This document shows positions 23,168 to 38,374 of a stretch of 64,000 nt of DNA, piece after piece; the stretch's first letter is position 1, and each line of letters opens with the position of its first letter. This stretch comes from Geomonas ferrireducens. Its GTDB lineage: Bacteria; Desulfobacterota; Desulfuromonadia; Geobacterales; Geobacteraceae. Where the stretch lies: NCBI RefSeq assembly GCF_004917065.1, contig NZ_SSYA01000003.1:704318-768317 (forward strand), in the 5' to 3' direction. Both the position numbers and the translations under genes were made by a program. Under the pieces are notes generated by a model. The model did not search any database. It saw only the letters and a list, made by a program, of their open reading frames with translations, and was not told the DNA's origin.

Positions 23168-23312
23168 CAAAACCGATTCAAACAGGGATGAAGGGGATAC
23201 AGGGGATAAAACCTTTATAACCAGAAACCACAAGCTTGAGGTTAAACCAAGAAGTCTTTTGGTTTTAAAGCCTTTATCCCGTTCATCCCCTTCATCCCTG
23301 TTAAATGGTTCT
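23168..23312. repeat. Dispersed palindromic repeat, copy 1 (accagaaaccacaag subtype)
   Basis: Left arm aaaaccgattcaaacaggga then tgaaggggatacaggggata; core accagaaaccacaagctt then gaggttaaacc; right arm tttatcccgttcatcccctt then catccctgttaaat. The arms are inverted copies of each other. The left arm begins within a few bases of the dehydratase stop. The core differs from the cgcaaag core of most other copies and is shared only with the copy on the other side of the GxxExxY gene. Confidence 0.9.
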
Positions 23313-23390
23313 TGTCTTGATCGATGAAAATACTTGAGGATCTGTTATAAGCATTGACGCCTTCTAATTTTGCTTGTGGCGGAGGTCCTC

Positions 23391-23762
23391 GTGATCCATG
23401 ACGACTTGACTGGTAAGGTTATTGGCGCCTGTTTTGAAGTCAGCAATGAACTCGGCAGCGGCTTCCTTGAGTCTGTGTACGAAAAGGCGCTACTGGTAGC
23501 CCTGACGGATGTCGGATTGCAAGCTGACTCGCAAGTTCCTCTGAAGGTCGTTTATCGCAACAAAGTTGTCGGGGATTTTTTCGCAGATATTGTTGTTGAA
23601 GGGACGGTGTTGTTAGAATTGAAAGCCGTGAAAGCTTTAGCTCCTGAACACACTGCCCAAGTACTAAATTATCTGAAAGCTACGGGCATCGAAGTTGGAC
23701 TGCTGGTTAACTTCGGACATCCCAAACTCGAATACCGAAGGTTGGGCAATAGGCTCAGTTAA
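23391..23762 (+). CDS. GxxExxY family protein (PD-(D/E)XK nuclease-like fold)
   Basis: 123 residues from GTG 23391, chosen for the ggagg five bases upstream; a GTG at 23376 and a TTG at 23370 are further left. The family signature is GSGFLESVYEKAL near residue 25, followed by VVGDFFADIVVEGTVLLELK, whose Asp and Glu-x-Lys match the PD-(D/E)XK active-site pattern, and NYLKATGIEVGLLVNFG. Biochemical function of the family is not established. It sits alone between two dispersed repeats of one private subtype and is less G+C-rich than its neighbours, which suggests it arrived with, or is tied to, those repeats. Confidence 0.87.
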   Translation: MIHDDLTGKVIGACFEVSNELGSGFLESVYEKALLVALTDVGLQADSQVPLKVVYRNKVVGDFFADIVVEGTVLLELKAVKALAPEHTAQVLNYLKATGIEVGLLVNFGHPKLEYRRLGNRLS

Positions 23763-23977
23763 AACCGGTTAGGTTTAAACCAGAAAATCTTTTTCGTTTA
23801 AAGCCTTTATCCCGTTCATCCGTTTTTATCCCTGTAAATTGCTTTGCTGTTCAAACCGATTCAAACAGGGAGGAAGGGGATAAAGGGGATAAAACTTTTA
23901 TGACCAGAAACCACAAGCTTTGGGTTAAACCTGAAAACCTTTTTTGCTTAAAATCCCCTTCATCCATGTTAAAAGAG
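23763..23977. repeat. Dispersed palindromic repeat, copy 2 (half element plus full element)
   Basis: Directly after the GxxExxY stop comes a half element (aaccggttaggtttaaacc ... tttatcccgttcatccg ... tccctgtaaat), then from about 23850 a full element: aaaccgattcaaacaggga, ggaaggggataaagggg, core accagaaaccacaagctt, and a decayed right arm ccccttcatccatgttaaaa. The core is the same subtype as copy 1. Confidence 0.85.
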
Positions 23978-23985
23978 ATCTTTGA

Positions 23986-25620
23986 ATGAGATTATCCAAT
24001 ATCGTTGTGACGTTGTTCGTTGCTGTCCTTTATCCGGGGTTTGCTTTTGCTCTTTCGTCCCCGAACATACCTCTGGACAGTCCCATCTACCTCTACCTCG
24101 AGAAACTCTCCGGCTTCGGCTTGGTTTCTTCGGACGTGAAGGGGATTCGACCCTTCTCACGGGCGGAAGCGGCACGTATGGTCCGGGAGGCTGAGGAGAA
24201 AACGGTACCAGGCGCTACCTCACCGCTCGCCACCGAACTGATCTCCCGCCTCAAGGAGCTCCTGCCCCGCGAACTGACTTACTACGGTCGCGAGGAGTCG
24301 GCTCCTGCCTTCGACTACGACCCGCTCGCAATGGCTCGACTGCGCTACGTCTACCTCGATGGTGCACCGAGAAGCTATTACCGCGCCGTGCATGACCCAG
24401 GCGACGACGGCGTCTTCGGCATCGGCGGCGGCCTGCGTCCCTCGAACCCTTATCCCTCGCCGGTACAGCAGCGGGGCAGCGAGGGGACGCCGCTTTTGGA
24501 AAACAACGACGGCGTGGTCTACAAAAGAGGGACCAACCTGGACTTGACGGGGAGCGGGGAGCTCTACTTCGGTGCCATGGGAAGCGCGCTCGTTGAGCCG
24601 CAGCTCCTTTGGTCGGAGGCGGACGATGAGGCGAGGGTGCGCCTGAACCGCGGCTACGTGAAAATCGGCGGCAAGGGGCTGGAACTGGAGGTGGGGCGCG
24701 ACGAGAACTGGCTGGGTCCCGGCTACCGCGGTGCCATCACGCTGACCAATAACGCCAGAAACCTCGACCAGGTAAAGCTTTCCAGTCCCGAGTTGGTGAA
24801 GAGCAGATACCTCTGGGACCTCAAGTACTCCCTAGTCTTCTCCCGGCTTGAGAAAACGGTCACCGACGGAAAAGAGCGCGAGCCGTACTTCTTTGCAGGA
24901 AAACTCGCCATGAAACCGCTCGAGAACCTCGAGTTCGGCATAAACCTCGGACGACAGGCGGGCGGCCCCGGCGTCAACAACGGCTTCGGGGACATCGTGC
25001 GTGGCCTTGTAGGGGGGACGAGCGAGGACAATTCCAACTCCATCGCAGGGTTTGATCTGCGGCTGAGACTCCCCTGGCTGCGTAACACCGAGTTGTACGG
25101 CGAGCTATCCGGCGAAGACGCCGCGGCCTTCTGGCCCATCGTGGAGAGCTACGTCGCCGGCTTCTACATCCCGAGGCTCACCGACAGTGGCCGGGATGAC
25201 CTGCGCTTCGAGTACTTTCGCGGCAACCGCATCCTTTACACCAACGGCACCTTTGTTGAGGGATACCTGTACCATGGTCTGCCGCTTGGCCACTCCCAGG
25301 GGGGCGCCACCCAGGACTTCTTCCTGCGTTACAGCCACTGGTTCTCGGTACGCAACAACCTCGCGCTGGAGGCGTTCCATACCCGGCGCGGCGACTACGG
25401 CCGCGTCACCGTCGACGAGACTGGGAGGTATGACGCGGGCGGGGTTATGCAGGCGATCGAGCGCAAGAACGCCCTGCGCGCCTCTTGGACCTTCCCCGTC
25501 TTCAAGGAGTGGAGCGCCCTGCTTCTCTACGGTCAGGAATGGGTCCACAACTACGAGTTGCGCGCCGGAGACACGCAGATGAACCAGTTGCTGCGCGCCG
25601 AGCTCACCTACCGCTACTGA
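23986..25620 (+). CDS. Wzi-like capsule assembly outer-membrane protein
   Basis: 544 residues. A signal peptide is visible at residues 1-~21 (hydrophobic VVTLFVAVLYPGFAFA, cleavage near ALS). After it comes a helical region with SPIYLYLEKLSGFGLVSSD and IRPFSRAEAARMV, the usual opening of the Wzi capsule-assembly family (PF14052) in deltaproteobacteria. The rest alternates short polar/hydrophobic strands and ends in an aromatic strand (LLRAELTYRY), consistent with an outer-membrane beta-barrel. Wzi in E. coli anchors capsule at the surface. Placed close to the polysaccharide locus, it likely handles the same polymer; it has its own start region downstream of a dispersed repeat. Confidence 0.82.
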   Translation: MRLSNIVVTLFVAVLYPGFAFALSSPNIPLDSPIYLYLEKLSGFGLVSSDVKGIRPFSRAEAARMVREAEEKTVPGATSPLATELISRLKELLPRELTYYGREESAPAFDYDPLAMARLRYVYLDGAPRSYYRAVHDPGDDGVFGIGGGLRPSNPYPSPVQQRGSEGTPLLENNDGVVYKRGTNLDLTGSGELYFGAMGSALVEPQLLWSEADDEARVRLNRGYVKIGGKGLELEVGRDENWLGPGYRGAITLTNNARNLDQVKLSSPELVKSRYLWDLKYSLVFSRLEKTVTDGKEREPYFFAGKLAMKPLENLEFGINLGRQAGGPGVNNGFGDIVRGLVGGTSEDNSNSIAGFDLRLRLPWLRNTELYGELSGEDAAAFWPIVESYVAGFYIPRLTDSGRDDLRFEYFRGNRILYTNGTFVEGYLYHGLPLGHSQGGATQDFFLRYSHWFSVRNNLALEAFHTRRGDYGRVTVDETGRYDAGGVMQAIERKNALRASWTFPVFKEWSALLLYGQEWVHNYELRAGDTQMNQLLRAELTYRY

Positions 25621-25732
25621 TCCCGCCTCGCACGAAAACAGCAGCCCTGGTCAAATGTCCCCCAGCGGCTAATGTTCTTCCGGAAATCCCGGTGGAAAGA
25701 GGAGTGCCGCAACCCACGAAGCGCGCATTGGG

Positions 25733-25964
25733 CCTAACGTTCCCCCCTTTGCGAAGGGGGGGCAGGGGGGATTTGCCTTGGTCGGACCATACCAGCATCT
25801 GTTGACGCGGCCACTGCTCACGCTGCGCCTGGAATAGATGACAGAACCTTGGTGGCATCCTCTAGGAGGAAAGCGGCTCATGGAACCGTAAAACTTGCAG
25901 AAACCGCTGTAAAAATCAAATCCCCCCCGTCCCCCCTTCGCAAAGGGGGGAGCTTTAAAGGCCA
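25733..25964. mobile_element. MITE-like element, copy A
   Basis: A 232-bp non-coding element bounded by ~34-bp inverted repeats. The left end reads ccccccttt-gcgaagggggg then gcaggggggatttg; the right end, reverse-complemented, reads the same with gac for gca. Each end is itself a near-palindrome (ccccccttcgcaaagggggg). A second copy in the same orientation is at 35928-36147. The flanks 25621-25732 and 25965-26126 contain nothing else recognisable. Confidence 0.78.
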
Positions 25965-26126
25965 CTCTGTGGAGTAAGCACCGTCACAAAACGGGGCGTA
26001 AAGGCCTCGCCTGGTTCTTCGATGGAATGGAGGCTCAGCGGGGAAGCTCTTCGCTTGTGTTGACGGCTGCGCTGTGGCATAGTCCTGCCTGTACACTTTT
26101 CGGTACTTCAACCTGCGAGACTGTCC

Positions 26127-26360
26127 ATGGATAGAGATAAAGTCACCCTGCTTTTGGAAAGCATAAGCAGCAAACTCGATTACCTTCTTGAGGGGCAAGA
26201 GGCCCTTATTCGAGAGGTGCGCGAATCAAGTCGCAGGATGAAAGAACGCACTGAGTTACTTTGGCGCGAATTGGAAACCGAGCTGAACAATGAAGGGCTG
26301 AGTCTGGAGGAGCGTCTGGCCTTGTATAACACGCAAAAACATGGCGGCGAACGATGCTGA
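26127..26360 (+). CDS. Small coiled-coil hypothetical protein
   Basis: A 77-residue frame with no recognised family. Residues ~1-60 show a heptad-like pattern rich in Leu, Glu and Arg (LLLESISSKLDYLLEGQEAL, then ERTELLWRELETEL), so a helical coiled coil is likely. No signal peptide or membrane segment. The Shine-Dalgarno is weak, but codon choice looks coding and nothing better occupies the stretch. It sits between the MITE-like copy and the ExeA gene. It could be the remnant of a longer gene. Confidence 0.5.
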   Translation: MDRDKVTLLLESISSKLDYLLEGQEALIREVRESSRRMKERTELLWRELETELNNEGLSLEERLALYNTQKHGGERC

Positions 26361-26518
26361 CTGTCGGCCCCTTTAAGATGGTGTGCGCAGCACCCGCTCA
26401 AATGTCTAGATAACTCTTCCCCACGGCACCGGTCCACGCTCCCTTTCCCCTTTATTTCTCAACAGATTCGCGCTATATTCACCCCCTCGTCCAACGGCAA
26501 CCTCTAAAGGGAACGCAC

Positions 26519-27403
26519 ATGCCCGCGATGTACTGCGAATTTTACGGCTTCAGGGAGAGCCCGTTCACCCTCACTCCCAACCCCCGCTTTCTCTTCATGA
26601 GCGAACAGCACCGGGAGGCGTACGCGCACCTAGTCTATGCCGTTGACCATCGCGCGGGTTTCGTGGAGTTGACCGGAGAGGTCGGTACCGGCAAGACGAC
26701 GCTTTTGCGCACTTTCCTTGGTAAGCTCGACCAGGAGGGCCACCGCACCGCCCTCATCTTCAATCCATGTCTATCCGACCTCGAGCTTTTGAAGAGTGTG
26801 AACCGCGAGTTCGGTCTTTCCTGGGAATCGGAGAGCCGGGTGGAACTGCTGCAGGTGCTGAACGCCTTTCTGCTTCAGCAGAAAGAGGCGGGGCGCAGTG
26901 TCGTGCTGGTGATGGACGAGGCGCAGAACCTGCCCGCCGAGGTGCTGGAGCAGATACGCCTCATCTCGAACCTCGAGACGGAGACCGACAAGCTCATCCA
27001 GATCGTTCTTTCCGGCCAGCCGGAGCTTTTGTCGGTCCTTGCGCGCAAGGAGCTGCGCCAGTTGAACCAGCGCGTCACCGTGCGCTATCATCTGCTTCCC
27101 ATGGACTTCGAGAGCACGCAGCGCTACATCGACCATCGCATGGAGCTCGCCGGGTGCTATCGCGCCGCGGAGTTCTCCAAGGCTGCCATGAAACGCATCT
27201 ACCGTTTCTCCGGAGGGGTGCCGAGGCTGGTGAACGTGGTTTGTGACCGGGCTTTGTTGATCGGCTTCACCGAGGAGGCACGGACCATCACCGGCAAGAT
27301 GGCGGCCCAGGCCGTTTCCGAGGTGGGTGGTTTCTCCCCTTACGGCACGACAGCAAACGTGTTGCGTCGCGTCTTCGGAAGAAACATATTCAAACAGGGA
27401 TGA
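26519..27403 (+). CDS. ExeA/GspA-like AAA ATPase
   Basis: 294 residues. MYCEFYGFRESPFTLTPNP is the typical ExeA/MshM opening. Walker A is GEVGTGKTTLLR (residues ~56-67) and Walker B is VVLVMDEAQNLP; later RVTVRYHLLPMDFE and GGVPRLVNVVCDRALL are family-typical C-terminal motifs. Members energise assembly of type II secretion or type IV pilus-like systems, or serve as exopolysaccharide-locus ATPases. It lacks the long C-terminal periplasmic domain of true ExeA. Its partner gspB follows after a dispersed repeat. The last four codons (FKQG) and the TGA stop lie within that repeat, so the original C-terminus may have been altered. Confidence 0.87.
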   Translation: MPAMYCEFYGFRESPFTLTPNPRFLFMSEQHREAYAHLVYAVDHRAGFVELTGEVGTGKTTLLRTFLGKLDQEGHRTALIFNPCLSDLELLKSVNREFGLSWESESRVELLQVLNAFLLQQKEAGRSVVLVMDEAQNLPAEVLEQIRLISNLETETDKLIQIVLSGQPELLSVLARKELRQLNQRVTVRYHLLPMDFESTQRYIDHRMELAGCYRAAEFSKAAMKRIYRFSGGVPRLVNVVCDRALLIGFTEEARTITGKMAAQAVSEVGGFSPYGTTANVLRRVFGRNIFKQG

Positions 27404-27612
27404 AGGGGATATAGGGGATAAAGGCATAAAACCTTTATCACGCAAAGACGCAAAGGCGCAAAGAGAGGCAAAAACAAAAGAAAGATTTTGGTTTAAACCC
27501 AAAGCCTGTTGGCTTTTTATCCCGTTCATCCCATTTATCCCTGTTAAATAGCCTTTGTTTTTTTATTTGCTCTACTTTGCGTCTTGAGTGAGTGCAGCGA
27601 ACTGGCGTGACA
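27386..27612. repeat. Dispersed palindromic repeat, copy 3 (cgcaaag subtype)
   Basis: Left arm tattcaaacagggatgaagg then ggatataggggata; inner word tcacgcaaagacgcaaagg; centre agattttggtttaaaccca; right arm ttatcccgttcatcccattt then atccctgttaaata; then tttgcgtcttgagtgagtgc and agcgaactggcgtgac. It occupies the whole gap between exeA and gspB, genes that normally adjoin, and overlaps the end of exeA. Confidence 0.9.
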
Positions 27613-27634
27613 GAACTGGTATATAGAGGAGTGT

Positions 27635-28384
27635 ATGAGCTCTATTTTGAAGGCTTTAGAGAAGGTCGATGAGTCGCAAAGGCCGAGACGTGCGGCAAGC
27701 GGCGGCATTGGCAGGGGACGGGATCGGCGTCCTGCCTGGCTTCTGCCGGCCTGGACGCTTGGCGGCGCCTCCGTTGCTGCTATCGTCACCTACGCCTTGA
27801 TGGGCGGCTTTACGCGTCCGACTACGGTCGCGGAAAAACCGGCGCGTCCGGCTGTCGCAGAAGCTCCTGCCAAGACGGTGCAGCACCCCGTAGCCGAAAA
27901 GCAGCAACCGGTGCAACAACCGGTTGCGGCAAAACCTGGGGAACCCGTCGCAAAAACTTCGGCCAAACCGGTTGCGCAGTCCACTCCCCCGGCCTTAGCC
28001 GCAAAGCCGGTTCGGAGCACCGCGAAAGTTGCGGCAACCCCGGCCGCAACGAAACAGCAAGCGGCAGTGAAGGTCACGCAGCCTTTGCAGAAGGTTCGTC
28101 CGGTCTCCAATGCCGCTCTCCAGCCTGCGTCCATGGAAGCGGCGGCAGTCGCCGCCGTGGTGCCGGATCCTGCCCCGCAGAAATCTCGTCCTGCGATCCG
28201 CGTTTCCGGGATCGCATGGCAAAACAGCAGCGAGGCGAGTTTTGCCATGGTGAACGGGCACGCCCTGCGCCAGGGTGCCGTGGTGGAGGGGTACAAGCTC
28301 GAACAGATCTACGAAGACAGCGTCCGTTTCTCCAACAGCAAGGGGAATTCCCTGGTGGTCCCCCTCGGGGCGGGCGACGAATAA
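27635..28384 (+). CDS. GspB-like general secretion pathway protein
   Basis: 249 residues in three parts. Residues 1-30 are the conserved cytoplasmic start MSSILKALEKVDESQRPR of GspB/ExeB partners of ExeA. Residues ~38-58 (LLPAWTLGGASVAAIVTYAL) form one membrane helix. A long low-complexity Ala/Pro/Val/Lys linker (~65-180) spans the periplasm, and residues ~188-245 form the C-terminal GspB domain (IRVSGIAWQNSSEASFAMVN, then EGYKLEQIYEDSVRFS). GspB and GspA together help insert the secretin multimer. No secretin or pilin gene is in the window, so its target machine lies elsewhere. Confidence 0.87.
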   Translation: MSSILKALEKVDESQRPRRAASGGIGRGRDRRPAWLLPAWTLGGASVAAIVTYALMGGFTRPTTVAEKPARPAVAEAPAKTVQHPVAEKQQPVQQPVAAKPGEPVAKTSAKPVAQSTPPALAAKPVRSTAKVAATPAATKQQAAVKVTQPLQKVRPVSNAALQPASMEAAAVAAVVPDPAPQKSRPAIRVSGIAWQNSSEASFAMVNGHALRQGAVVEGYKLEQIYEDSVRFSNSKGNSLVVPLGAGDE

Positions 28385-28606
28385 CTGCACAAAACCGATT
28401 CAAACAGGGATGAAGGGGATAAAGGGGATAAAGGCACACACCTTTTCCTCACGCAAAGGCGCAAAGACGGTCAAATCGAACAAAAAGAATTAGGTTTAAC
28501 ACCAAAATCCTTTGTCTTTTAGGTTTTATCCCGTTCATCCCCTTCATCCCTGTTAAATAGTCTTTGTCTTAGGTTTCTTTGCGACTTTGCGTCTTTGCGT
28601 GACAGA
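28385..28606. repeat. Dispersed palindromic repeat, copy 4
   Basis: Left arm aaaaccgattcaaacaggga starts within 8 bases of the gspB stop, then tgaaggggataaagggg, ctcacgcaaaggcgcaaag, a centre with taggtttaacaccaaaatcc, right arm ttatcccgttcatccccttc then atccctgttaaata and finally ttgcgactttgcgtctttgc gtgaca. Confidence 0.9.
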
Positions 28607-28637
28607 GATTGTTGGTTTGAAAGGAAGGGAAGGTAAC

Positions 28638-28916
28638 ATGTCGGGGCATGAGATGGACCAGGCGCAGTGGGAGGCTCTGTGCGAGCAGTGCGGGCTCTGC
28701 TGCTTTGAGAAGATAGAGGACGAGGACGGCAGGATCCTGTTCACCTCGACTCCCTGCCGGTATCTGGATATAACGACCAGGCGCTGCAAGATCTACAAGA
28801 AGCGCTTCAAGGTCTTTCCCGAGTGCGTGCAGCTGACCCCGGAACTCGTAAAAGAGTTGAAGTGGCTGCATCGAAGCTGCGGCTACAAGAAGGCCATGCG
28901 CAAAGGAATCCTTTGA
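28638..28916 (+). CDS. YkgJ/YcgN-type cysteine-cluster protein
   Basis: 92 residues from ATG 28638, preceded by ggaagg; upstream in-frame codons fall inside the repeat. Cysteines are arranged as CEQCGLCCFEK near the N-terminus, CRYLDITTRRCKIY in the middle, FPECVQL and a final CGYKK, matching the YcgN/YkgJ family (CxxCGxCC), which is thought to bind zinc or an Fe-S cluster; its function is unknown. It is soluble and small. The stop (TGA) is immediately followed by the accgattcgaacaggg arm of the next repeat. Confidence 0.87.
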   Translation: MSGHEMDQAQWEALCEQCGLCCFEKIEDEDGRILFTSTPCRYLDITTRRCKIYKKRFKVFPECVQLTPELVKELKWLHRSCGYKKAMRKGIL

Positions 28917-29200
28917 ACCGATTCGAACAGGGATGAAGGGGATAAAGGGGATAAAGACTTACAACCCTTTTTCACGCAAAGCCGCAAAGACGCAAAGCAA
29001 AGACAAGCTTTAGGTTTAAACCAAAATCTTTTGTGTTTGCCGTTTATGCTTTAACCTTGCGACTTTGCGTCTTTGCGTGACAGTGGATTTGGGTCTTGTT
29101 TTTATCCCGTTCATCCCCTTCATCCCTGTTAAATAAGCCTTTGTTTTTGTTTTACTTTGCGACTTTGCGTCTTGAGTGAGCGTAGCGAACGGGCGTGAGG
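28916..29200. repeat. Dispersed palindromic repeat, copy 5
   Basis: Left arm gaaccgattcgaacagggat begins on the last base of the preceding stop, then gaaggggataaagggg and cacgcaaagccgcaaagacg; centre aggtttaaaccaaaatcttt; right arm ttgcgactttgcgtctttgc, ttatcccgttcatccccttc, atccctgttaaata, and a distal cttgagtgagcgtagcgaac module. Confidence 0.9.
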
Positions 29201-29243
29201 CGCTTTTTTGATGCATCTAAAATGATAGGAGTTGTCACCCACT

Positions 29244-30494
29244 ATGTCGGATAAGAACCACGCAGTAACAGTCAGACTTTCGGAAGCTGATTTCCAGGCA
29301 CTTTCCCTTCAGCAGAAAACCCAGTACCTGAAAACGCAATCCGGCAAGGAAAAGATGGACCTGATCCTCGCCGACTCCGATGCAAGAAGACTCGCCGCCT
29401 CTCTGGAGTCGCAGGAGTTCTTCTGGCTCATCAAAGAAGTGGGCGAGGCCGACGCGGTGGAACTCCTGCGTCTTGCTTCGGCGGAGCAGTGTGTCTTCAT
29501 CCTCGACATGGAACTCTGGGAGGGCTGGACTTTCTCAGAGGATCGCGCCTGCCACTGGCTTACCTACTTCATGGAAGGGGGCGAGCCGCGCGTCCACGAA
29601 CTGCTGAAGCATCTGGACTTCGAGCTTTTGCAGCTCTTGCTGAGCCGTGAAATCGTGGTGGGCGGTGGTATCGGCGATCAGGACAACGACGAGGAGCGCC
29701 TGGCGGATTACGACCACACCTTCGACGGCGTGTTCATGGTGACCTTCAAGAAACCGCAGCACAGTCAGTTGATCGGCTCGTTTCTCTCCATGCTGATCAA
29801 GTTGGACAACCCGCTCTATACGGCGCTTATGGAAGGGGTGAAAGGGGATGTCGACCTGGAGATGGAGGAGCAGTGCCAGCGTTTTCGCACCGGAAGGCTG
29901 CAGGACCTGGGATTCCCCCCGCTTGACGAGGCGCTATCGATCTACGCCCGCGTGCATCCGGACCATTTCCAGCTGGAGGGAGGGAAAGAGCTTGTCCCGG
30001 CAGGGGAGGGGGGGCACTTTCTTCCGGTCGCCGCCGACGAAGGGACGCTCTTCGCACGCGCCTTGAACCGCGCAGACTCGGAGATCGTCTATCAGGAGCT
30101 GAATTACCTCGTGAACAGTGCGCTCGTCGCGGAAGGAGAGGCGTTCCACGAGCCGGAGTCGATGCTCGCGGTGATGCACCGGGTGTGCGGCTACCTGAAC
30201 ATCGCGCTGGAGAAGGTCGCTGCCGGTGATGAGGAGGTGGCGGCGCGCATCCTGGTCGAGGAGGAATTGAAGCGGTTGTTTCAGCTTGGCTACAGCATCG
30301 TGCTGCAGCTCAAGTTCGCGGCGCGGGACATGGAGAGTGAGGACTACGCCACGGCGAAACTGCTTGCCGGGCTTAAGACGAAGCGTCCGCGCTACTACCG
30401 CGGGCTCGATGAGGATGGCATCGACGGTTACCGGGAGTTCCGGGATACCGGCGACGTGCAGCGCGTGGCGGAATTCATCCAGGCACACCACTAA
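29244..30494 (+). CDS. DUF6178 family protein
   Basis: 416 residues from ATG 29244 (an in-frame TTG at 29232 is an alternative). The sequence is soluble and mostly helical by inspection, rich in Leu, Glu and Asp, with no signal peptide or membrane helix. Recognisable family text includes KTQYLKTQSGKEKMDLILAD, FWLIKEVGEADAVELLRLAS and ARPHDLA-like motifs are absent; near the end GLKTKRPRYYRGLDEDGIDG is typical. DUF6178 is found mainly in geobacters and related deltaproteobacteria and has no known activity. Dispersed repeats border it on both sides. No catalytic motif could be identified. Confidence 0.75.
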   Translation: MSDKNHAVTVRLSEADFQALSLQQKTQYLKTQSGKEKMDLILADSDARRLAASLESQEFFWLIKEVGEADAVELLRLASAEQCVFILDMELWEGWTFSEDRACHWLTYFMEGGEPRVHELLKHLDFELLQLLLSREIVVGGGIGDQDNDEERLADYDHTFDGVFMVTFKKPQHSQLIGSFLSMLIKLDNPLYTALMEGVKGDVDLEMEEQCQRFRTGRLQDLGFPPLDEALSIYARVHPDHFQLEGGKELVPAGEGGHFLPVAADEGTLFARALNRADSEIVYQELNYLVNSALVAEGEAFHEPESMLAVMHRVCGYLNIALEKVAAGDEEVAARILVEEELKRLFQLGYSIVLQLKFAARDMESEDYATAKLLAGLKTKRPRYYRGLDEDGIDGYREFRDTGDVQRVAEFIQAHH

Positions 30495-30786
30495 AAACTG
30501 TCACCCAAAGACGCAAAGAAAACCAAGACAAAGACTTATTTAACAGGGATGAAGGGGATAAAAGGGGTAAAACCAAGGCAAAATTCTCTGTCACGCAAAG
30601 ACGCAAAGTCGCAAAGGAAAACCTGAAAAACCTTAACAGGGATAAGGAATAAACCAGAGACAAAAGACTTTGGGGGTAAAACCGAAATTCTTTTGTTTCT
30701 GCTTGTCTTTGCGCCTTTGCGGCTTTGCGTGACAAAGGTTTTACGCCTTTATCCCGTTTATCCCCTTCATCCCTGTTTGAATAGGT
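30495..30786. repeat. Dispersed palindromic repeat, copy 6, between convergent genes
   Basis: Starts at the DUF6178 stop with gtcacccaaagacgcaaaga, continues tttaacagggatgaagggga, tcacgcaaagacgcaaagtc, a second taacagggataagg, centre actttgggggtaaaaccgaa, then ctttgcgcctttgcggcttt gcgtgaca and the right arm tttatcccgtttatcccctt catccctgtttgaatagg, which abuts the mtaB stop on the other strand. Confidence 0.9.
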
Positions 30787-32079
30787 TTACGCTTTTATCC
30801 TGCCTATCAGTTCCCCGCCTTTGGTGCCGGTGATCGCTACGTTCACCTCACGGTTCACCATTTCCTCGCTTCCGTCGATCTGCACGGTCAGGTAATTCCT
30901 GGCAAGCCCCCTGCGCCCTCCATCGTCTTTTTGCACAAGTACCTGTAGTTCACGTCCCACGAACTTGGCGGCATACTCTGCCTTCTTCCGCTCGGAGAGG
31001 AGCCTTAGTTTCTCGGCGCGCTCCTTGATCACCTTCGGCTGCACCTGGGCGGCCATGGTGGCGGCGGGGGTGCCGGGACGCTGCGAGAATGGGAAAACAT
31101 GGAGGTAGGCGAGGGGGAGCGACTCGATGAACGCGAAGGTCTCGGCGAACTCCTCGTCCGTCTCCCCGGGGAAGCCCGCGATCACGTCGGAGCCGATGCA
31201 TACGTCGGGGATGGCTGCGACCAGCGCATCGACGACACTGCGGAAAAGCTTCGTATCGTAGCCGCGGTTCATACGGGACAGCACGCCGTCGGAGCCGCTT
31301 TGCAGTGGTAGGTGCAGGTGCGGGCAGACGATTTTCGAAGTGGACATGAACTCGACCATCTCGGCGGGGACCTCGGTCGGCTCCACCGAGCCTACCCGCA
31401 GCCTCTGCACCACTCCCTGCTCTTCGGCAAGCTTCATAAGGCCCAAAAGGTCGGTCGGCGGGTCGAGGTCGAGGCCGTATGCGCCGAGATGGATCCCGGT
31501 CAGCACGATCTCCCGGAACCCTTTCGCTGCAAACGCGGCCATACCCTCGAGCGCTTCCGGCGGGGCGACGCTGCGCGAAGCGCCGCGCGCATAGGGGACG
31601 ATGCAGTATGCGCAACGGGCGTCGCAGCCGTTTTGCACCTGCAGGAAGGCACGGGTGTGCTCGGCGAAGCTCTCCAGCGGCGTTCTCTCTTTCGACCTCT
31701 CCTTCGATATGTCGCTCACCACCGCCTGCGGCTCGTCCTTCAACCCCTCGATGAAGCCGACGATGTCTTTCTTCTCGGTGTTGCCGAGGATCAGGTTAAC
31801 GCCGGGGAGTTTCAGAAGATCGTCGCCGGCCATCTGGGCGTAGCAGCCGGTGACCACGACGCGGGCCTCCGGGTTCATGCGGGAGGCGCGTCTGATCAGG
31901 CGGCGCGACTCGGCGTCGGTTTTGGCGGTGACGGTGCAGCTGTTGATGACGTAGATATCGGCCTTTTCGGTGAAGGGGACGAAGCTGTACCCTTGCTGCT
32001 CGAGGGCCTGGGTCATGGCGGCAGACTCGAACTGGTTGATTTTGCAGCCGAGGGTGGTGATGGCTATCTTCTTGTTCAT
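30787..32079 (-). CDS. mtaB: tRNA threonylcarbamoyladenosine 2-methylthiotransferase MtaB
   Basis: 430 residues. The radical-SAM methylthiotransferase layout is complete. The N-terminal cluster-binding cysteines are Cys12 (TLGCKINQFESA), Cys48 (INSCTVTAKTD) and Cys79 (TGCYAQMAG). The radical SAM motif is Cys152-Cys156-Cys159 (NGCDARCAYCIVPYARG). A TRAM domain occupies the last ~60 residues. GCKINQFES (rather than GCQMN of MiaB or GC-x-K of RimO) points to MtaB, which adds methylthio to t6A37 in tRNAs decoding ANN codons. RBS gaggttgc precedes the ATG. Confidence 0.93.
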   Translation of the reverse strand: MNKKIAITTLGCKINQFESAAMTQALEQQGYSFVPFTEKADIYVINSCTVTAKTDAESRRLIRRASRMNPEARVVVTGCYAQMAGDDLLKLPGVNLILGNTEKKDIVGFIEGLKDEPQAVVSDISKERSKERTPLESFAEHTRAFLQVQNGCDARCAYCIVPYARGASRSVAPPEALEGMAAFAAKGFREIVLTGIHLGAYGLDLDPPTDLLGLMKLAEEQGVVQRLRVGSVEPTEVPAEMVEFMSTSKIVCPHLHLPLQSGSDGVLSRMNRGYDTKLFRSVVDALVAAIPDVCIGSDVIAGFPGETDEEFAETFAFIESLPLAYLHVFPFSQRPGTPAATMAAQVQPKVIKERAEKLRLLSERKKAEYAAKFVGRELQVLVQKDDGGRRGLARNYLTVQIDGSEEMVNREVNVAITGTKGGELIGRIKA

Positions 32080-32093
32080 GCAACCTCAAAATA

Positions 32094-32426
32094 CATATTT
32101 AACAGGGATAAAGGGGATGAAGGGGATAAGGCCAAAAAACATTTGTAACGCAAAGGAGCTGAGACGAAAAGAAAAAAAGAACTAATACAGGGATGCAGGG
32201 GGGGATGGGATAAACCTAAAAGCTCCTGTCACGCAAAGACGCAAAGTCGCAAAGCATATTAACAGGGATGAAGGGGATGAAGGGGATAAACCAAAGACAA
32301 AAGACTTCGGAGGTTAAACCAAAGTCTCTTTAATTTCTGCTTTCTTTGCGCCTTTGCGTCTTTGCGTGACAAAGGTTTTATGCCTTTATCCCGTTCATCC
32401 CCTTCATCCCTGTTTGAATCGGTTTT
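32094..32426. repeat. Dispersed palindromic repeat, copy 7 (longest, partly duplicated)
   Basis: Fills the gap between cysE (stop) and mtaB (start). It reads taacagggataaaggggatg, then tgtcacgcaaagacgcaaag at 32225-32245, a second taacagggatgaaggggatg, centre acttcggaggttaaaccaaa, gcgcctttgcgtctttgcgt, ttatcccgttcatccccttc and cctgtttgaatcggtttt, which abuts the cysE stop. Confidence 0.9.
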
Positions 32427-33093
32427 AGCTGAGTTTCTTCTTGAGCGCTTCGTGCTCGGCGGCGAGGGCGTTGTACTTCCTCTCCAGCTCGCGGATCTGG
32501 TCGAAGAGGCAGGAGATCGCCTTCGCCTCGGGGTCCGGCATCTTGCCGTGCTCAAGGTCGAGACGGTCCTGCGGCTTTTCGGTGGCCATTACCACGCGCC
32601 CGGGTATGCCGACGACGGTGGAGTTGGGGGGGACTTCCTTTACGACGACGGAGTTGGAGCCGACCTTGCTGTCTTTTCCCACTGTGAAGGGGCCGAGGAT
32701 CTTTGCACCGGAGCCGATGACGACGTTGTCCATCAGGGTGGGGTGACGTTTCACCTTTTCCCAACTGACACCGCCCAAGGTGACGCCGTGGTACAGGGTC
32801 ACGTTGTCACCGATCTCGGCGGTCTCGCCGATCACGACGCCCATGCCGTGGTCGATGAAGAAGCCTTTGCCGATCTTCGCACCGGGGTGGATCTCGATGC
32901 CGGTGAAAAAGCGCCCGAAGTGGGAGGTGAGGCGTCCCAGGAAGTAGCAGTCGTGGACCCAGAACCAGTGTGCCACCCGGTGGAACCAGAGAGCGTGCAG
33001 TCCCGGATAACAGAAGATCACCTCGAGCACGCTTCTTGCCGCCGGATCCCTGTCAAAGACTGCCTTTATGTCTGATTTCAACCTTGTGAACAT
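32425..33093 (-). CDS. cysE: Serine O-acetyltransferase
   Basis: 222 residues from ATG 33093, which follows a gggaggg Shine-Dalgarno; in-frame ATGs further upstream lack one. The order is a short helical N-terminus ([20 protein letters not shown]), [17 protein letters not shown], then the beta-helix with [20 protein letters not shown] (catalytic Asp-His) and [12 protein letters not shown]. This compact EpsC-type CysE makes O-acetylserine for cysteine synthesis. The charged C-terminal tail is predicted helical. No cysK neighbour; repeats flank both sides. Confidence 0.93.
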
Positions 33094-33191
33094 CGGTTCC
33101 CTCCCTGGTTTCATGTCTTTTTGTCGTAACATACCACACCGAATACGTCAATAATTAACATGAAACCCGAAGTAAAAAGCAAAACAGAAGC

Positions 33192-33520
33192 TTAAACCGG
33201 TTCACGCAAAGACGCAAAGTCGCAAAGGAAAATCAAAAAAAAGGCTTATTTAACAGGGATGAAGGGGATGAAAGGGATGAAAGGGATAACATCTAAAACA
33301 AGATCTGGTGTCACGCAAAGACGCAAAGACGCAAAGGAAAACCTGAAAGACATTTAACAGGGATAAAGTGGCGGAAAGGGATAATCAAGATAAGAAAGGC
33401 TTTGGGGGTAAACCAGAATCTTTTGTTTGTGCTTGTCTTTGCGCCTTTGCGTCTTTGCGTGACAAAGGTTTATGCTTTTATCCCGTTTATCCCCTTCATC
33501 CTTGTTCAGATCGGTTTTGT
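33192..33520. repeat. Dispersed palindromic repeat, copy 8
   Basis: Between miaA (stop) and cysE (start). Words in order: ttcacgcaaagacgcaaagt, taacagggatgaaggggatg, gtcacgcaaagacgcaaaga, taacagggataaag, centre gctttgggggtaaaccagaa, gcgcctttgcgtctttgcgt, ttatcccgtttatccccttc and ccttgttcagatcggttttg. The right end runs into the coding sequence of miaA and provides its stop codon. Confidence 0.9.
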
Positions 33521-34440
33521 TTGAAACGGTTTTGCAGCAGTTCGAGTGCCTCGTTCAGCGGGTCCCCGGCGCCTCCGACCCAGTTGATCTCGGTACCACG
33601 GCTTTGCATCTTTTTGAACCAGTTCTCCTGCTTCTTGGCAAAATCGTGGATCGCGGCGTTCAACTTCTGAAACATGTCATTGCGGGAGAGTTCTCCCTTT
33701 AGGTACCGGGCGAGGTAGCGATACTCCAGACCGTAAAACTCGAGCCGCTCCCAGCTCGTCCCTGCCTCGTGCAGACGACGCACCTCCTCGACCATCCCGG
33801 CTTCCATGCGCTCCTTGAGCCTGCGGGTGATCCGCTCTCTTATCACGGCTCGATCCCAGCGGATACCGATGGTGAACGGCACGATGTCGGGCCACGGCTC
33901 ACTTGCCTCGCCATTATGCTCGGCGATCTCGATGGCACGCACGAGACGGCTGCGCTCGGTAAGATCTGTGGTGTTGTGCAGGGTGGGGGCGGCGCGGACC
34001 AGCCTCTCGGCAAGCTCTTCCATGGAAAGCGGCGCAAGTTCGTCCCTCAGCTCAGGGTTTTCCGGAACCTCGGCCAGGCGGTAGCCGCGCAGCACGCAGT
34101 CGAGGTACATGCCGCTCCCACCCACCAGGATCGGCAGTTTGCCGCGTTCTGAGATCTCGGCAAAGCAAGCGAGAAAGTAACGCTGGAACTGGAACAGGTT
34201 GAACTCGGAGCCGGGAGGGGCTATGTCGATCAGGTGGTAGGGGATGCCTTCGTACTCGTGCAGGTCCTTGCCGGTGCCCAAGTCCATGCCGCGATAGACC
34301 TGGCGCGAATCGGCTGAAATGATCTCACCGTCGAACCTGTCGGCCAACTGCACCCCAAGCCGCGTCTTTCCCGAGGCGGTGGCTCCGAGGATGACCAGCA
34401 GGTTGGGGCTGCCGGACGTCTTGCTGCTGCCGGATACCAT
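33496..34440 (-). CDS. miaA: tRNA dimethylallyltransferase
   Basis: 314 residues from ATG 34440, whose A is shared with the ctpA stop (TGATG). P-loop LVILGATASGKTRLGVQLA, then IISADSRQVYRGMDLGTGK, YHLIDIAPP and LPILVGGSGMYLD are classical MiaA motifs. It transfers a dimethylallyl group to N6 of A37 in tRNAs reading UNN codons; with mtaB nearby, two A37 modification enzymes sit in one neighbourhood. The C-terminus ends NRFKQNRSEQG, encoded by two head-to-tail copies of the repeat arm, with the stop supplied by the repeat, so the native end has been replaced or extended. Confidence 0.94.
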   Translation of the reverse strand: MVSGSSKTSGSPNLLVILGATASGKTRLGVQLADRFDGEIISADSRQVYRGMDLGTGKDLHEYEGIPYHLIDIAPPGSEFNLFQFQRYFLACFAEISERGKLPILVGGSGMYLDCVLRGYRLAEVPENPELRDELAPLSMEELAERLVRAAPTLHNTTDLTERSRLVRAIEIAEHNGEASEPWPDIVPFTIGIRWDRAVIRERITRRLKERMEAGMVEEVRRLHEAGTSWERLEFYGLEYRYLARYLKGELSRNDMFQKLNAAIHDFAKKQENWFKKMQSRGTEINWVGGAGDPLNEALELLQNRFKQNRSEQG

Positions 34441-35807
34441 CAACGGCCGGCGCTCTTTTGCAGGACGTTGACTCCTTTCAGCAGGTCGAGGGCGCGAGCG
34501 AGTTGATTGTCCTTTTGCAGAAGCTCTTCATTGCTGAGCTCCGGACTCTTCCCGTTGCTGCGGGAGGGGAGTTGCCGCGGCGCGGTTTTTTTCGGCGGCG
34601 CCGGGGCCGGATGCCCCGCCTCGGGGACCTCCTCCATGTGCCCGTCCAGGTCCCGCTCACGGACATCGGCCTCCTTCTCCTTATTGAGCGCCGGTTTTGT
34701 GGCGAACTCGACGACGATGTCGGGGGTGATCCCTTTGGCCTGAATGGAGCGCCCGTTCGGGGTGTAGTAACGTGCGGTGGTGAGCTTCAGCCCATCGCCG
34801 TTGTTGAGGGTCATCACCGACTGCACGCTTCCCTTGCCGAAGCTCTGCGTACCCATGATCACGGCGCGCTTGTGGTCTTGCAGCGCGCCGGCGACGATCT
34901 CGGAGGCGCTCGCGCTGCCACCGTTTATGAGCACCACCATCGGGTAGTTCGGCTCCTTCTTCCCTATCGTGGCGGTTAGCGTGTTGGTCATCCCGGGCTC
35001 GCGCCCTCTGGTGCTGACGATGTCGCCGTTGCCGAGCCCCTCGCCGATGAAACGGTCGGCGACACGGTAGGCCTGGTCCACGAGTCCGCCCGGGTTGTAG
35101 CGCAGGTCGAGCACGAGACCGGAGAGCGGTCCTCCGTTGTCCGCGGCCAGGGTTTTCAGGGCTCTCTCGAAGTCCTCGCCGGTCCTTTCTTGGAACTCCG
35201 CGATACGGACGTAGCCGAAACCTGGCGCAACGAGGCGGGCCTTGAGGCTCTTGGTCTTGATGATGGCGCGGGTGAGGCGGAAGGTGAGCGGCGCTGCGGC
35301 CCCCTCTCTCTCTATGGTCAGGGTGACCGTGGTCCCCGGGGTGCCGCGCATCCGGTTGACGCACTCGTTGATGGGGAGATCCTTGGTCGGCTTGCCGTCG
35401 ATGAGGGCGATGTGATCGCCGGACAGGATGCCTGCCTTGAAGGCCGGGGTGTCCTCGATAGGCGCGTTGACCATGAGCTTGCCGTTACGCATGTCCAGCT
35501 CGATCCCCACGCCGCCGAAGGCGCCGGCCATGTGCACTTTCATCTCGGAGAAGTCCGAAGCGGGAAGGTAAACGCTGTGCGGGTCGAGCGCGGCCAGCAT
35601 CCCGTTGATGGCGCCGGTCATGAGCTTTTTGTCATCGACCTTGTCGACGTAGCTCTCTTTGACGATGTCCACCACTTCCTTGAACATGGCGAGGTATTCC
35701 GCCTCGCTGCGGCGGGCACGCTCTTCCTTATCAAGAAGCGGTGCCAGGAAGAAGAGGGAAGCGAGGATGGCGGCGACGGCCGATATGACGAAACCTTTTT
35801 TCAGCAT
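34440..35807 (-). CDS. S41 family C-terminal processing protease
   Basis: 455 residues. One N-terminal membrane helix (residues ~5-24, VISAVAAILASLFFLAPLL) anchors it in the inner membrane facing the periplasm. A PDZ domain (residues ~90-175; FGGVGIELDMRNGKLMVNAP) is followed by the S41 catalytic core with LRYNPGGLVDQAYRVADRF, NGGSASASEIVAGAL (catalytic Ser) and GTQSFGKGSVQSV (catalytic Lys). The last ~90 residues are charged and Pro-rich, longer than in E. coli-type CtpA. It trims exported proteins at their C-terminus. Translationally coupled to miaA. Confidence 0.93.
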   Translation of the reverse strand: MLKKGFVISAVAAILASLFFLAPLLDKEERARRSEAEYLAMFKEVVDIVKESYVDKVDDKKLMTGAINGMLAALDPHSVYLPASDFSEMKVHMAGAFGGVGIELDMRNGKLMVNAPIEDTPAFKAGILSGDHIALIDGKPTKDLPINECVNRMRGTPGTTVTLTIEREGAAAPLTFRLTRAIIKTKSLKARLVAPGFGYVRIAEFQERTGEDFERALKTLAADNGGPLSGLVLDLRYNPGGLVDQAYRVADRFIGEGLGNGDIVSTRGREPGMTNTLTATIGKKEPNYPMVVLINGGSASASEIVAGALQDHKRAVIMGTQSFGKGSVQSVMTLNNGDGLKLTTARYYTPNGRSIQAKGITPDIVVEFATKPALNKEKEADVRERDLDGHMEEVPEAGHPAPAPPKKTAPRQLPSRSNGKSPELSNEELLQKDNQLARALDLLKGVNVLQKSAGR

Positions 35808-35927
35808 CCAGGTGGGCCTTTGCTAGTTTTCGGGATGAAACGGCGACTGTTACTGTAGTTTTTGCGTCGTTAGTTGTCAAGAATTCCGGGGAGGCCAATA
35901 CATGAGCTACGAAGCGCCGTCCTTGAA

Positions 35928-36147
35928 CCTAGCGTTCCCCCCTTTGCGAAGGGGGCAGGGGGGATTTGCCGTGGCCGGACCATACAAGCGCCTGCTGTTG
36001 CTGCGATCACGCACCCTGCAATAGCAAATGACAGATAACGAACAACTTGCCCGTGAGGGAAGCGACTCCGTTCAACCGATTAGAACCAATGGATGACAAT
36101 CAAATCCCCCCCGTCCCCCCTTCGCAAAGGGGGGAGCTCTAAGGCCA
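35928..36147. mobile_element. MITE-like element, copy B
   Basis: A 220-bp relative of the element at 25733, in the same orientation. Ends match closely: left cct-a-gcgttccccccttt then gcgaagggggcagggggg; right tcaaatcccccccgtccccc then cttcgcaaaggggggagctc. Interior text such as ggaccatac and atgacagaac/atgacagataac is shared, so the whole element, not just the ends, is homologous. It lies in the divergent gap between ctpA and the DUF502 gene and contains no coding frame. Confidence 0.78.
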
Positions 36148-36287
36148 CCGTTCTCAGCAAGAAAGAACAGCGATTGCCAGAAACGGTTCTTCCCCGGGAT
36201 TAAGGAATGAACATCGCTACGGTGGGGAACACCGTTGACATTTCGGCCGCTTTTGTAGCATAACGCAAACGGAAGATAGGAGGCACA

Positions 36288-36887
36288 ATGGAAAAACTCA
36301 TCAAACATTTCAAGGGGCGCTTCATCACGGGCCTGTTCGTGGTCGTTCCCCTGGGCATCACCATTTTTATTCTGAAGTTCCTGTTCAACTTCGCGGACGG
36401 CATCCTCGGGTCGTACCTTGATTCGTTGCTCACCGCCCTGATCAACGACCACACCTATATCCCCGGCCTTGGCATGCTGACCGGGGTGATCGTCATCTAC
36501 CTTTCCGGGCTTCTCGCCACCAACGTGATGGGAACGAGGATTCTCAGGTGGTGGGACGATCTCTTTTCGCGCATCCCCCTGGTGAAGTCGATCTACGGCT
36601 CCAGTAAGCAGCTCACCCAGGTTTTCAAGGACGGCAAGACCTCCTATCGTCGTGCCGTGTTCGTTGAGTGGCCACGAAAGGGGGTGCGTGCCGTCGGCTT
36701 CGTGACCGCTGAGGTCGAGCATGACGGCGAGAGGATGGTTGTGGTGTACGTGCCGACCATGCCGAATCCGACCTCCGGATTCGCACTCTTTTTCCATGAG
36801 GACGAGGTCGAGGACTGCGGCATGACGGTGGAGGACGCGGTTAAGTTCGTGGTTTCCGGCGGCGTCGTGGTTGAAAAAAACCTTTAA
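36288..36887 (+). CDS. DUF502 family membrane protein
   Basis: 199 residues. Two N-terminal membrane helices are visible (FITGLFVVVPLGITIFILKF, residues ~12-32, and LGMLTGVIVIYLSGLLAT, residues ~63-82), followed by the DUF502 core: WWDDLFSRIPLVKSIYGSSK, then FVEWPRKGVRAVGFVTAEV and VYVPTMPNPTSGFALFF. RBS ataggagg precedes the ATG by six bases. The family is widespread in bacteria and plants (LIKE-COV) without an assigned biochemical role; an inner-membrane location is expected. It is followed directly by a dispersed repeat. Confidence 0.88.
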   Translation: MEKLIKHFKGRFITGLFVVVPLGITIFILKFLFNFADGILGSYLDSLLTALINDHTYIPGLGMLTGVIVIYLSGLLATNVMGTRILRWWDDLFSRIPLVKSIYGSSKQLTQVFKDGKTSYRRAVFVEWPRKGVRAVGFVTAEVEHDGERMVVVYVPTMPNPTSGFALFFHEDEVEDCGMTVEDAVKFVVSGGVVVEKNL

Positions 36888-37163
36888 CCAAAACCCGGCT
36901 CGCGCAAAGACGCAAAGCAAAACAAAGACAACAAAATCTCTGTCACGCAAAGACGCAAAGTCGCAAAGTCGCAAAGTAAAACCCGAAAGCCATTTAACAC
37001 GGATGAATGGGATGAAAGGGATAAAACCTTTAAAAAAAAGAGACTTTGGGGTTAAACCAGAATCTTTTGTTGTGCTTGTCTTTGCGCCTTTGCGTCTTTG
37101 CGTGACAAAGATTTGTGCCTTTATCCCCTTTATCCCCTTTATCCCTGTTTGAATCGGTTTTGA
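36888..37163. repeat. Dispersed palindromic repeat, copy 9
   Basis: Begins after the DUF502 stop with cgcgcaaagacgcaaagcaa, then tgtcacgcaaagacgcaaag extended by three more cgcaaag units, taacacggatgaatgggatg, centre gactttggggttaaaccaga, gcgcctttgcgtctttgcgt, ttatcccctttatccccttt and atccctgtttgaatcggttt. The last arm lies 12 bases from the start codon of the next gene, an exception to the usual 3'-end placement. Confidence 0.9.
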
Positions 37164-37174
37164 GTGAGGTGGTC

Positions 37175-38140
37175 ATGAAGATCGTGGTGCTGGACGGACA
37201 CACCCTGAACCCCGGTGACAACCCGTGGGACGAGGTCGCTGCTTTCGGCGAACTCACCGTGCACGACCGCACCCCGGAGCATCTTGTTGCGGAGCGCTCC
37301 CGCGGCGCGCAGATCATACTCACCAACAAGACGCCGCTCACGGCAGCTACCCTGGCCCTGCTCCCCGAGCTTAAGCTTATCTGTGTCCTTGCTACCGGCT
37401 ACAACGTGGTGGATCTGGCGGCCGCGGCGCGGCTTGGCATTCCGGTGGTGAACGTGCCGGAGTACGGCAGCGATTCGGTGGCGCAGCACGCCATCGCCCT
37501 GATTTTGGAGCTCACGAACCGGGTGGCGCATTATAGCGAGGCGGTTCACAGGGGGGATTGGACCCGCTCGGCGGACTTCACCCTCGTCGGGGAGCCGCTC
37601 ACCGAACTCTGCGGCAGGACGATCGGGATCGTCGGGCTCGGACGCATCGGTGCGCGCGTCGCGGCCGTCGCACATGCCCTTGGCATGCAGGTCATCGCGT
37701 ACAACCCGCGTCACCGTGCCGCACCCGGTGGATTTCCTGTTACATGGGTCGAGCTTCACGAGCTTTTTGGTCGTTCCGACGTGATAAGCCTGCACTGTCC
37801 GCTTACCGAGGATAATGCGGGTATGGTGAACGCGGAGCTTCTCTCGCTCATGCAGCGCCACGCGCTTCTTATCAACACCTCGAGGGGCGGGCTTGTAAAC
37901 GAGGGGGACTTGGCCGATGCCCTGAACCGTGGCGTCATCGCCGGAGCCGCCGTGGACGTTGCCGCCTCAGAGCCGATCCCTGACGACAGCCCGCTTCTCA
38001 CCGCAAGAAACTGCATCATCACCCCGCACATCGCCTGGGCCACCATGGCCGCCCGCCAAAGGCTCATGGCGACTACGGCGCAAAACATCGCCGCCTTCCT
38101 CGAAGGTTCCCCTCAAAACGTCGTGAACCAAAACCTGTAA
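37175..38140 (+). CDS. D-2-hydroxyacid dehydrogenase (glycerate/hydroxypyruvate reductase-like)
   Basis: 321 residues from ATG 37175, with gaggtgg just upstream; the 20 in-frame codons before it are translated repeat. NAD-binding loop GIVGLGRIGARVAAVAHALG (residues ~148-167) and the catalytic set Arg (NTSRGGLVNEGDLADAL region and earlier LATGYNVVDLAAA), Glu and His (IITPHIAWATMAAR) are present. The spacing and ATGYNVVD text fit the HprA/VanH-like hydroxypyruvate or glycerate dehydrogenase subgroup. Substrate assignment is by subgroup similarity only. Cytoplasmic, monocistronic. Confidence 0.87.
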   Translation: MKIVVLDGHTLNPGDNPWDEVAAFGELTVHDRTPEHLVAERSRGAQIILTNKTPLTAATLALLPELKLICVLATGYNVVDLAAAARLGIPVVNVPEYGSDSVAQHAIALILELTNRVAHYSEAVHRGDWTRSADFTLVGEPLTELCGRTIGIVGLGRIGARVAAVAHALGMQVIAYNPRHRAAPGGFPVTWVELHELFGRSDVISLHCPLTEDNAGMVNAELLSLMQRHALLINTSRGGLVNEGDLADALNRGVIAGAAVDVAASEPIPDDSPLLTARNCIITPHIAWATMAARQRLMATTAQNIAAFLEGSPQNVVNQNL

Positions 38141-38374
38141 GCATCTCACGCCCGTTCGCTTTGCTCACTCAAGCCGCAAAGTCGCAAAGATAATCAAAAA
38201 CGAGGAAACCATTTAACAGGGATGAATGGGATAAAAGGGATGTACCAAGACAAAAGACTTTGGGGTTAAACCAAAATCTTTCGTTTCTGCTTGTCTTTGC
38301 GCCTTTGCGCCTTTGCGTGAGAAAGGTTTATGATTTTATCCCCTGTATCCCCTTCATCCCTGTTTGAATAGGCT
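38141..38374. repeat. Dispersed palindromic repeat, copy 10 (rightmost)
   Basis: Begins right at the dehydrogenase stop with the inverted third module (ctcacgcccgttcgctttgc then tcactcaag at 38145-38173), then gccgcaaagtcgcaaag, taacagggatgaatgggata, centre actttggggttaaaccaaaa, gcgcctttgcgcctttgcgt, ttatcccctgtatccccttc and cctgtttgaatagg. No copy was found to its right. 38375-38549 shows nothing recognisable apart from a short ccaca/tgtgg hairpin near 38500. Confidence 0.88.

Follow-up and report, generated by a model that had tools for sequence, protein, structure and literature searches.

Palindromic repeats of tandem short units and their link to GxxExxY genes in Geomonas ferrireducens

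The DNA stretch analysed here (hereafter the window, G000:C3:704318-768317) covers 64,000 nucleotides of the genome of Geomonas ferrireducens (G000, 4.81 Mb in 14 contigs). Between positions 23168 and 38375, it holds ten clusters of palindromic repeats, and the first two of them bracket a gene of the GxxExxY family (Table 1). Their arms and centres recur far above shuffled expectation: the 20-mer ccgattcaaacagggatgaa had 9 matches in the window with up to 3 mismatches (shuffle mean 0.01), CGCAAAGNCGCAAAG had 34 with up to 1 mismatch (0.04) and ACAGGGATRAAGGGGATRAA had 41 with up to 3 mismatches (0.01). A first-pass annotation had reported ten palindromic copies with inverted arms around a GGTTTAAACC-like centre and none in the EPS block or right of 38.4 kb. 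Both statements hold, as every match in the window to these arm patterns lies within the 23168-38375 stretch; other copies occur beyond the window, elsewhere in the genome. The single common plan that it had proposed has to be replaced by two separable arm families, A with period-9 GGGATRAA units and B with period-8 CGCAAAG units, both inverted and pointing inwards about the centre. Elements 1 and 2, beside the GxxExxY gene, have A-arms and no B-arm, while the other eight clusters combine A- and B-arms. Strong folds were predicted for element 1 as DNA (z -9.18) and for element 4 as RNA (z -6.25). A described RNA family was rejected as the identity of the palindromes, with 0 matches at the gathering score in an Rfam scan of the window.

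The bracketed gene is a 130-codon open reading frame (ORF) whose product matches TIGR04256 (E 2.8e-42, 143.7 bits against a cut-off of 35) and the PD-(D/E)XK family PF13366 (E 1.4e-41, 142 bits against a cut-off of 22). The catalytic-site residues D73, E83 and K85 of PD-(D/E)XK are invariant in both GxxExxY alignments. A sequence search for a solved GxxExxY homologue returned none that was convincing (best E 0.18). The AlphaFold2 model of the protein has a mean predicted local distance difference test (pLDDT) score of 91.9, and its best PDB match was SSO0001 (E 8.8e-5), which we take to be a Cas4 protein, followed by LHK-Exo, lambda exonuclease and MGME1. The model thus suggests a Cas4/exonuclease-like fold and a putative nuclease. 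The genome contains two GxxExxY genes, the second of which (in L026) lies between CGCAAAG-type palindromes, so that palindromes bracket both. The first-pass annotation was silent on the fact that its first two copies bracket a nuclease-family gene. Among genomes of the same family, GxxExxY was present in 44 of 48, with 114 matches that include some fragments. A phage or defence origin was rejected: one scan of viral contigs gave 4 GxxExxY loci, and neither PHROGs nor PADLOC had a match for the two proteins of this genome.

The linkage between gene and repeats extends well beyond this locus. At all 31 GxxExxY loci (30 genomes), the left and right 300-bp flanks shared a repeat that scored above all 40 Markov shuffles, compared with 0/30 loci for PIN genes taken as a control from the same 48 genomes. 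With 500-bp flanks, the counts were 31/31 and 2/30, respectively. A contig scan provided a multi-phylum set, the best 80 loci of 580 confirmed GxxExxY matches, which come from many phyla and include two archaeal records; the set is biased to one protein class, GxGLLE, because this motif was part of the search pattern. Flank repeats exceeded shuffles in 65 of the 76 multi-phylum loci with enough flank, versus 13 of 178 for the remaining ORFs at those loci.

The arm units vary by locus (CACAGAG, CGCAAAG, CACGGAG, CGCAGAT, CACGAAT, GGGATAA), and their class matches that of the protein. We collected 171 loci, 168 of them with usable flanks. The 116 GxGLLE proteins had 76 RAG-ending arms, 1 RAT-ending arm and 39 that could not be classified; the 45 GxGFLE proteins had 18 RAT-ending, 2 RAG-ending and 25 unclassifiable arms, and the seven proteins with neither motif had 2 RAT, 2 RAG and 3 without assignment. 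The class matching (Fisher p 2e-16, on counts that ignore kinship) also appears in the window's own family alone, where RAG:RAT ratios were 25:0 for GxGLLE and 2:18 for GxGFLE. Control stretches 500-800 bp away scored arms in 1/100, 1/45 and 1/7 loci. Hence, GxGLLE proteins pair with units of the form CRCNRAG (B-type here) and GxGFLE proteins with units that end in AT (A-type here), among them CGCAGAT, CACGAAT and GGGAT. Within the GxGLLE class, finer covariation was weak over all 90 loci (r 0.18).

Comparison of the same site between members of the genus showed this pairing changing as a unit. In the gap between the dehydratase and wzi-like genes, a GxxExxY cassette is present in 12 genus genomes, a count that excludes L177, where only one neighbour gene matched. 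Five encode a GPGLLE protein, all with CGCAAAG-type arms, and seven a G[SAN]GFLE protein, all with GGGAT-type arms (arms assigned by eye), so that protein type and arms switch together in 12/12 genomes. On a midpoint-rooted tree built from pieces of two other genes, at least three type switches are needed, compared with a mean of 4.1 for shuffled labels. Close relatives can differ in cassette type, as do G000 and G017 from G019, or G013 from G023. The same gap was sought in six further genomes and obtained from five, the sequence from the sixth (L307, G027) falling short of the wzi-like gene. By eye, two of the five (G015 and G022) have a gene-less palindrome of CGGAT units with an apparent leftover CGC right arm, while their sister G014 carries the cassette; G024 has an array of GGGAT units with no gene, G018 has a half-arm, and G026 lacks an arm altogether. 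At another site, upstream of the trmN6-like gene, the 330 bp inspected in each of 19 genus genomes contained palindromes with a GxxExxY gene in 6, a gene-less palindrome in 3 and neither in 10, one of the latter (G021) having a different neighbour. With cassette, gene-less and empty states and joint switches, arms and gene therefore come, go and change together. Whole-cassette switches could also arise if cassettes and palindromes moved passively, through homologous recombination or transfer of flanking DNA and with no enzyme of their own, as could the cargo found between two elements in G017 (described below). We consider this quite unlikely, for it leaves unexplained both the bracketing of one protein family in nearly all loci and the many copies at unrelated sites.

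Gene-less copies are numerous. The CGC-unit pattern has 313 sites in this genome, versus 10 for the same pattern reversed, and from 4 to 331 sites across the genus. The CAC-unit pattern has 0-18 sites in most of the genus and 56, 78 and 37 in G018, G024 and G026, respectively, three genomes in which the count for the CGC pattern comes close to that of its control. A-type arm sites also cluster around the A-type gene: a distance of 70 kb takes in 27 of the 50 sites in this genome (1.5 expected) and 31 of the 56 in G017, the independent events being fewer than the sites because each element gives two or more. All 25 genomes reached via loci of other groups hold the CAC pattern, 19 of them with at least twice the backward control; most of these genomes were chosen for their CAC-type arms, and tandem arrays inflate the control. 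The remaining six (G054, G059, G064, G069, G071, G072) fell below the twice-control mark or had too few sites. Genome copy number was moderately associated with the cognate gene, with medians of 69 and 9 for CGC (p 3e-4) and of 21 and 2.5 for CAC (p 0.02), in a comparison that uses 91 of the 114 GxxExxY matches and ignores kinship. Gene-bearing and gene-less forms share terminal inverted repeats.

These copy numbers bear on the view that the arms serve the GxxExxY gene or its transcript as operator or processing sites, that gene-less copies are decayed cassettes and that the protein moves no DNA. Such a role would account for the match between arm and protein classes, for gene-less copies at sites where relatives carry the gene, and for the CGC-type right-arm remnant seen by eye in G015 and G022 next to a sister with the cassette. 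It is unlikely, however, given 313 CGC pattern sites for two GxxExxY genes here and the new copies at gaps which most of the genus keeps short. Dispersal of the gene-less copies could instead be the work of a different mobile enzyme, such as a Y1 (HUH) transposase, with GxxExxY cassettes using or riding the palindromes. Repetitive extragenic palindromic (REP) sequences spread in this way in other bacteria, according to PMC8266576, and four Y1_Tnp matches are found in the genome, at three places. However, neither the A nor the B motif occurs at any of the four Y1 loci (about 1.5 kb inspected on each side), unlike the two GxxExxY genes, which are both bracketed. We therefore rejected Y1 enzymes or REP-associated tyrosine transposases (RAYTs) as the mover and hold such a scenario to be very improbable. 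Some flank repeat of a different type is present at two Y1 loci (L298 and L301).

The positions of the palindromes relative to genes were first read differently, as elements that insert at, replace or act as the 3' ends of transcripts. The gene names mtaB, cysE and miaA were confirmed. In the seven genes listed in support, one arm of the palindrome (the marked arm) does abut or contain the stop codon as judged by eye, the stop lying inside the arm for exeA and miaA, and its orientation follows the gene. Three of the ten copies have no adjoining stop: the marked arm at 23856 lies about 94 bases past the GxxExxY stop, the one at 37138 abuts a start codon and the one at 38353 has no gene near; the latter two also break the orientation rule. 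The copies show a bias towards stop codons. The marked arm was near a same-strand stop in 6/14 copies here, 9/14 in G017 and 5/7 in G019, against 11-13% of intergenic positions, using automatic simple ORF calls and three genomes whose counts are not independent because they are related.

This bias and the strong RNA hairpin of element 4 are what one would expect if the element replaced, or acted as, the transcript end of the abutting gene. The contrast first drawn with T-run terminators of other genes did not survive: a scan of 20.5-40.4 kb for intrinsic terminators (a G+C-rich stem followed by a T-run) found 25 terminator-like sites, three of which fall in element gaps; shuffled sequence gave 26.4 +- 5.5, so nothing rose above background. 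Between gspB and the Cys-cluster gene, 15 of the 18 genus genomes that have a gspB match show a gap of at most about 50 bp that holds no element (by eye). The exeA / gspB gap was compared, also by eye, in 12 other genomes: it is short in nine, longer but free of palindromes in two, and occupied by a different palindrome in G027. No terminator was visible in the short, operon-like gaps of these relatives. Convergent gaps are not in excess either. With simple ORF calls and comparison gaps of 60 bp or more, element gaps in 240 kb of this genome were 16 tandem, 1 convergent and 0 divergent, against 59/12/18 for other gaps; in G017, where 14 of 18 clusters could be placed, they were 11/2/1 against 65/12/16. 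Neighbours around GxxExxY copies were co-directional in 58/86 and 42/67 placed gaps, compared with 10/27 for the PIN control. At element 9, moreover, the arm flanks a start codon. A role as transcript end is therefore unsupported, because the elements sit mostly between co-directional genes and some occupy gaps that are short and element-free in relatives, and we regard it as extremely unlikely. The elements here are probably insertions in operon-like gaps, not terminator substitutes, and the part of the first reading that had them inserting at 3' ends is supported by the element-free gspB gaps of relatives, the stop-codon bias and the tandem-gap placement. Some effect of the elements on transcripts may nevertheless exist.

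Table 1. Palindromic elements and the GxxExxY gene in the window (positions of the 64,000-nucleotide stretch)
Feature	Position	Strand	Description
Element 1	23168..23311	+	A-type palindrome directly after dehydratase stop codon; left bracket of GxxExxY gene
GxxExxY gene	23370..23762	+	TIGR04256, PF13366 PD-(D/E)XK; GSGFLE type; start codon uncertain
Element 2	23767..23975	+	A-type half palindrome (centre and right arm), then second A-type palindrome; right bracket of GxxExxY gene
Element 3	27383..27612	+	Composite A/B; left arm contains end of exeA-like gene
Element 4	28390..28610	+	Composite A/B; gap gspB / Cys-cluster gene
Element 5	28914..29202	+	Composite A/B; gap Cys-cluster gene / DUF6178 gene
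Element 6	30490..30793	-	Composite A/B; convergent gap DUF6178 gene / mtaB
Element 7	32090..32428	-	Composite A/B; gap mtaB / cysE
Element 8	33197..33522	-	Composite A/B; gap cysE / miaA; miaA stop inside arm
Element 9	36898..37163	-	Composite A/B; marked arm abuts start codon of 2-hydroxyacid dehydrogenase-like gene
Element 10	38145..38375	-	Composite A/B; no gene abutting marked arm

Several other observations concern individual elements and repeats. The gap after the Cys-cluster gene, occupied by element 5, contains a palindrome or arm in many genus members (L233-L240, L243-L245; by eye), and in L244 the stop codon is supplied by the arm itself. The B-arms of three elements (27585-27612, 29172-29200, 38145-38170) are interrupted by a gagtgagcgtagcgaacgggcgtga-like insert of 20-odd bases, as though a stretch of arm had been exchanged for a short sequence. 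The window also holds two copies (25735-25955 and 35930-36140) of a separate repeat, which has CCCCCCTTTGCGAAGGGGG-type ends around a body of 165-220 bp and whose presence differs between G000 and G017 at several sites. Elsewhere in the genome, other dense clusters of CACGCAAAG-type arms were found at G000:C2 1556032-1556684 and C3 63629-71988.

We propose, as the somewhat favoured explanation, that the palindromes belong to a mobile element as its gene-less copies, that the complete element includes the GxxExxY gene and that the putative nuclease is responsible for its movement. Since they look like such copies, they are probably insertions rather than transcript-ending devices. In the complete cassette, a GxxExxY gene of about 350-400 bp would lie between an arm built from two to four short tandem units and the same arm inverted, with whole palindromes bracketing the gene at some loci. 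The GxxExxY protein would recognise its arms, perhaps as an extruded hairpin, and cut there; repair could then copy the palindrome or cassette into new sites, often near by, and most of the copies that survive selection would lie directly behind stop codons, away from promoters. More tentatively, and with rather less confidence, the small Cas4-like PD-(D/E)XK protein GxxExxY could be the mobility enzyme of tandem-unit palindromes across bacteria and some archaea, reading the last base of RAG or RAT through a two-way GxGLLE/GxGFLE code and spreading gene-less copies as RAYTs spread REPINs.

Several observations weigh against this explanation. The arms could not be classified at 39/116 GxGLLE and 25/45 GxGFLE loci, 11/76 multi-phylum loci had no flank repeat, and no finer correlation between protein and arm was found across phyla (r 0.015, p 0.37, n=64). 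In some copy-rich genomes, no cognate gene is among the loci retrieved: G031 has 39 CAC sites and no GxxExxY match, and G016 has 171 CGC sites and one GxGFLE gene. The counts in favour, moreover, take no account of kinship. No target-site duplication was seen when G000 was compared with G017 and G019. Where G000 has one element, G017 has another gene between two elements. In this cargo (L284 4561-5298), a short gene that encodes a nucleotidyltransferase domain (PF18765/PF01909) is followed by a further frame, and PADLOC gave a weak match to PDC-S09. The large length differences, 9 between G000 and G017 and 6 between G000 and G019, included several due to a different repeat family, and none revealed a recent A/B insertion facing a clean empty site.

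The element is best read as REPIN/RAYT-like in plan and unrelated in protein. RAYTs are HUH (Y1) enzymes, unlike the PD-(D/E)XK nuclease-family protein described here, and REP sequences carry a GTAG-type tag, unlike the present arms, which are made of tandem 8-10-base units. Such a tag is also named in the title of PMC3733652. Likeness to the 'REPtrons' formed by REP/REPIN and RAYT (TnpA_REP), as presented in PMC8266576, lies in dispersed intergenic palindromes that flank a single DNA-processing gene and in protein groups matched to palindrome groups. A further shared trait is the many dispersed palindromes of the gene-side type, here 313 CGC and 50 A-type sites. In the related Geobacter, multicopy families of palindromes or short direct repeats lie between genes, several per gap as here (PMC2996986, PMC2700814). 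Unlike the present elements, these are named without an associated gene in the accessible parts of both papers, a comparison made by description. Miniature inverted-repeat transposable elements (MITEs) and their autonomous parents likewise include a gene-bearing form and many short gene-less forms with inverted ends, but our elements have no transposase of a known family and no visible target-site duplication. Homing endonuclease genes resemble the cassette in that a small (putative) nuclease gene sits in a spreading unit of its own, and in that a given site can be either filled or empty. They differ in that the arms here travel with the gene yet widely occur without it, that no intron or intein is involved, and that the empty site (G026) has no arm.

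GxxExxY is a widespread orphan family rarely mentioned in the open literature; in the accessible text of open papers (subscription papers and preprints outside scope), mentions were in passing and in other contexts. Searches of the open literature did not find the CAC/CGC-unit arm strings or CGCAAAG strings, and matches to other A- or B-arm strings were unrelated by title. Linking GxxExxY proteins to palindromes provides them with a substrate that can be tested, and points to a likely source for the repeats. If the proposed role is true, it would represent a second, independent invention of the REPIN/RAYT plan, one whose arm code makes specificity directly testable.

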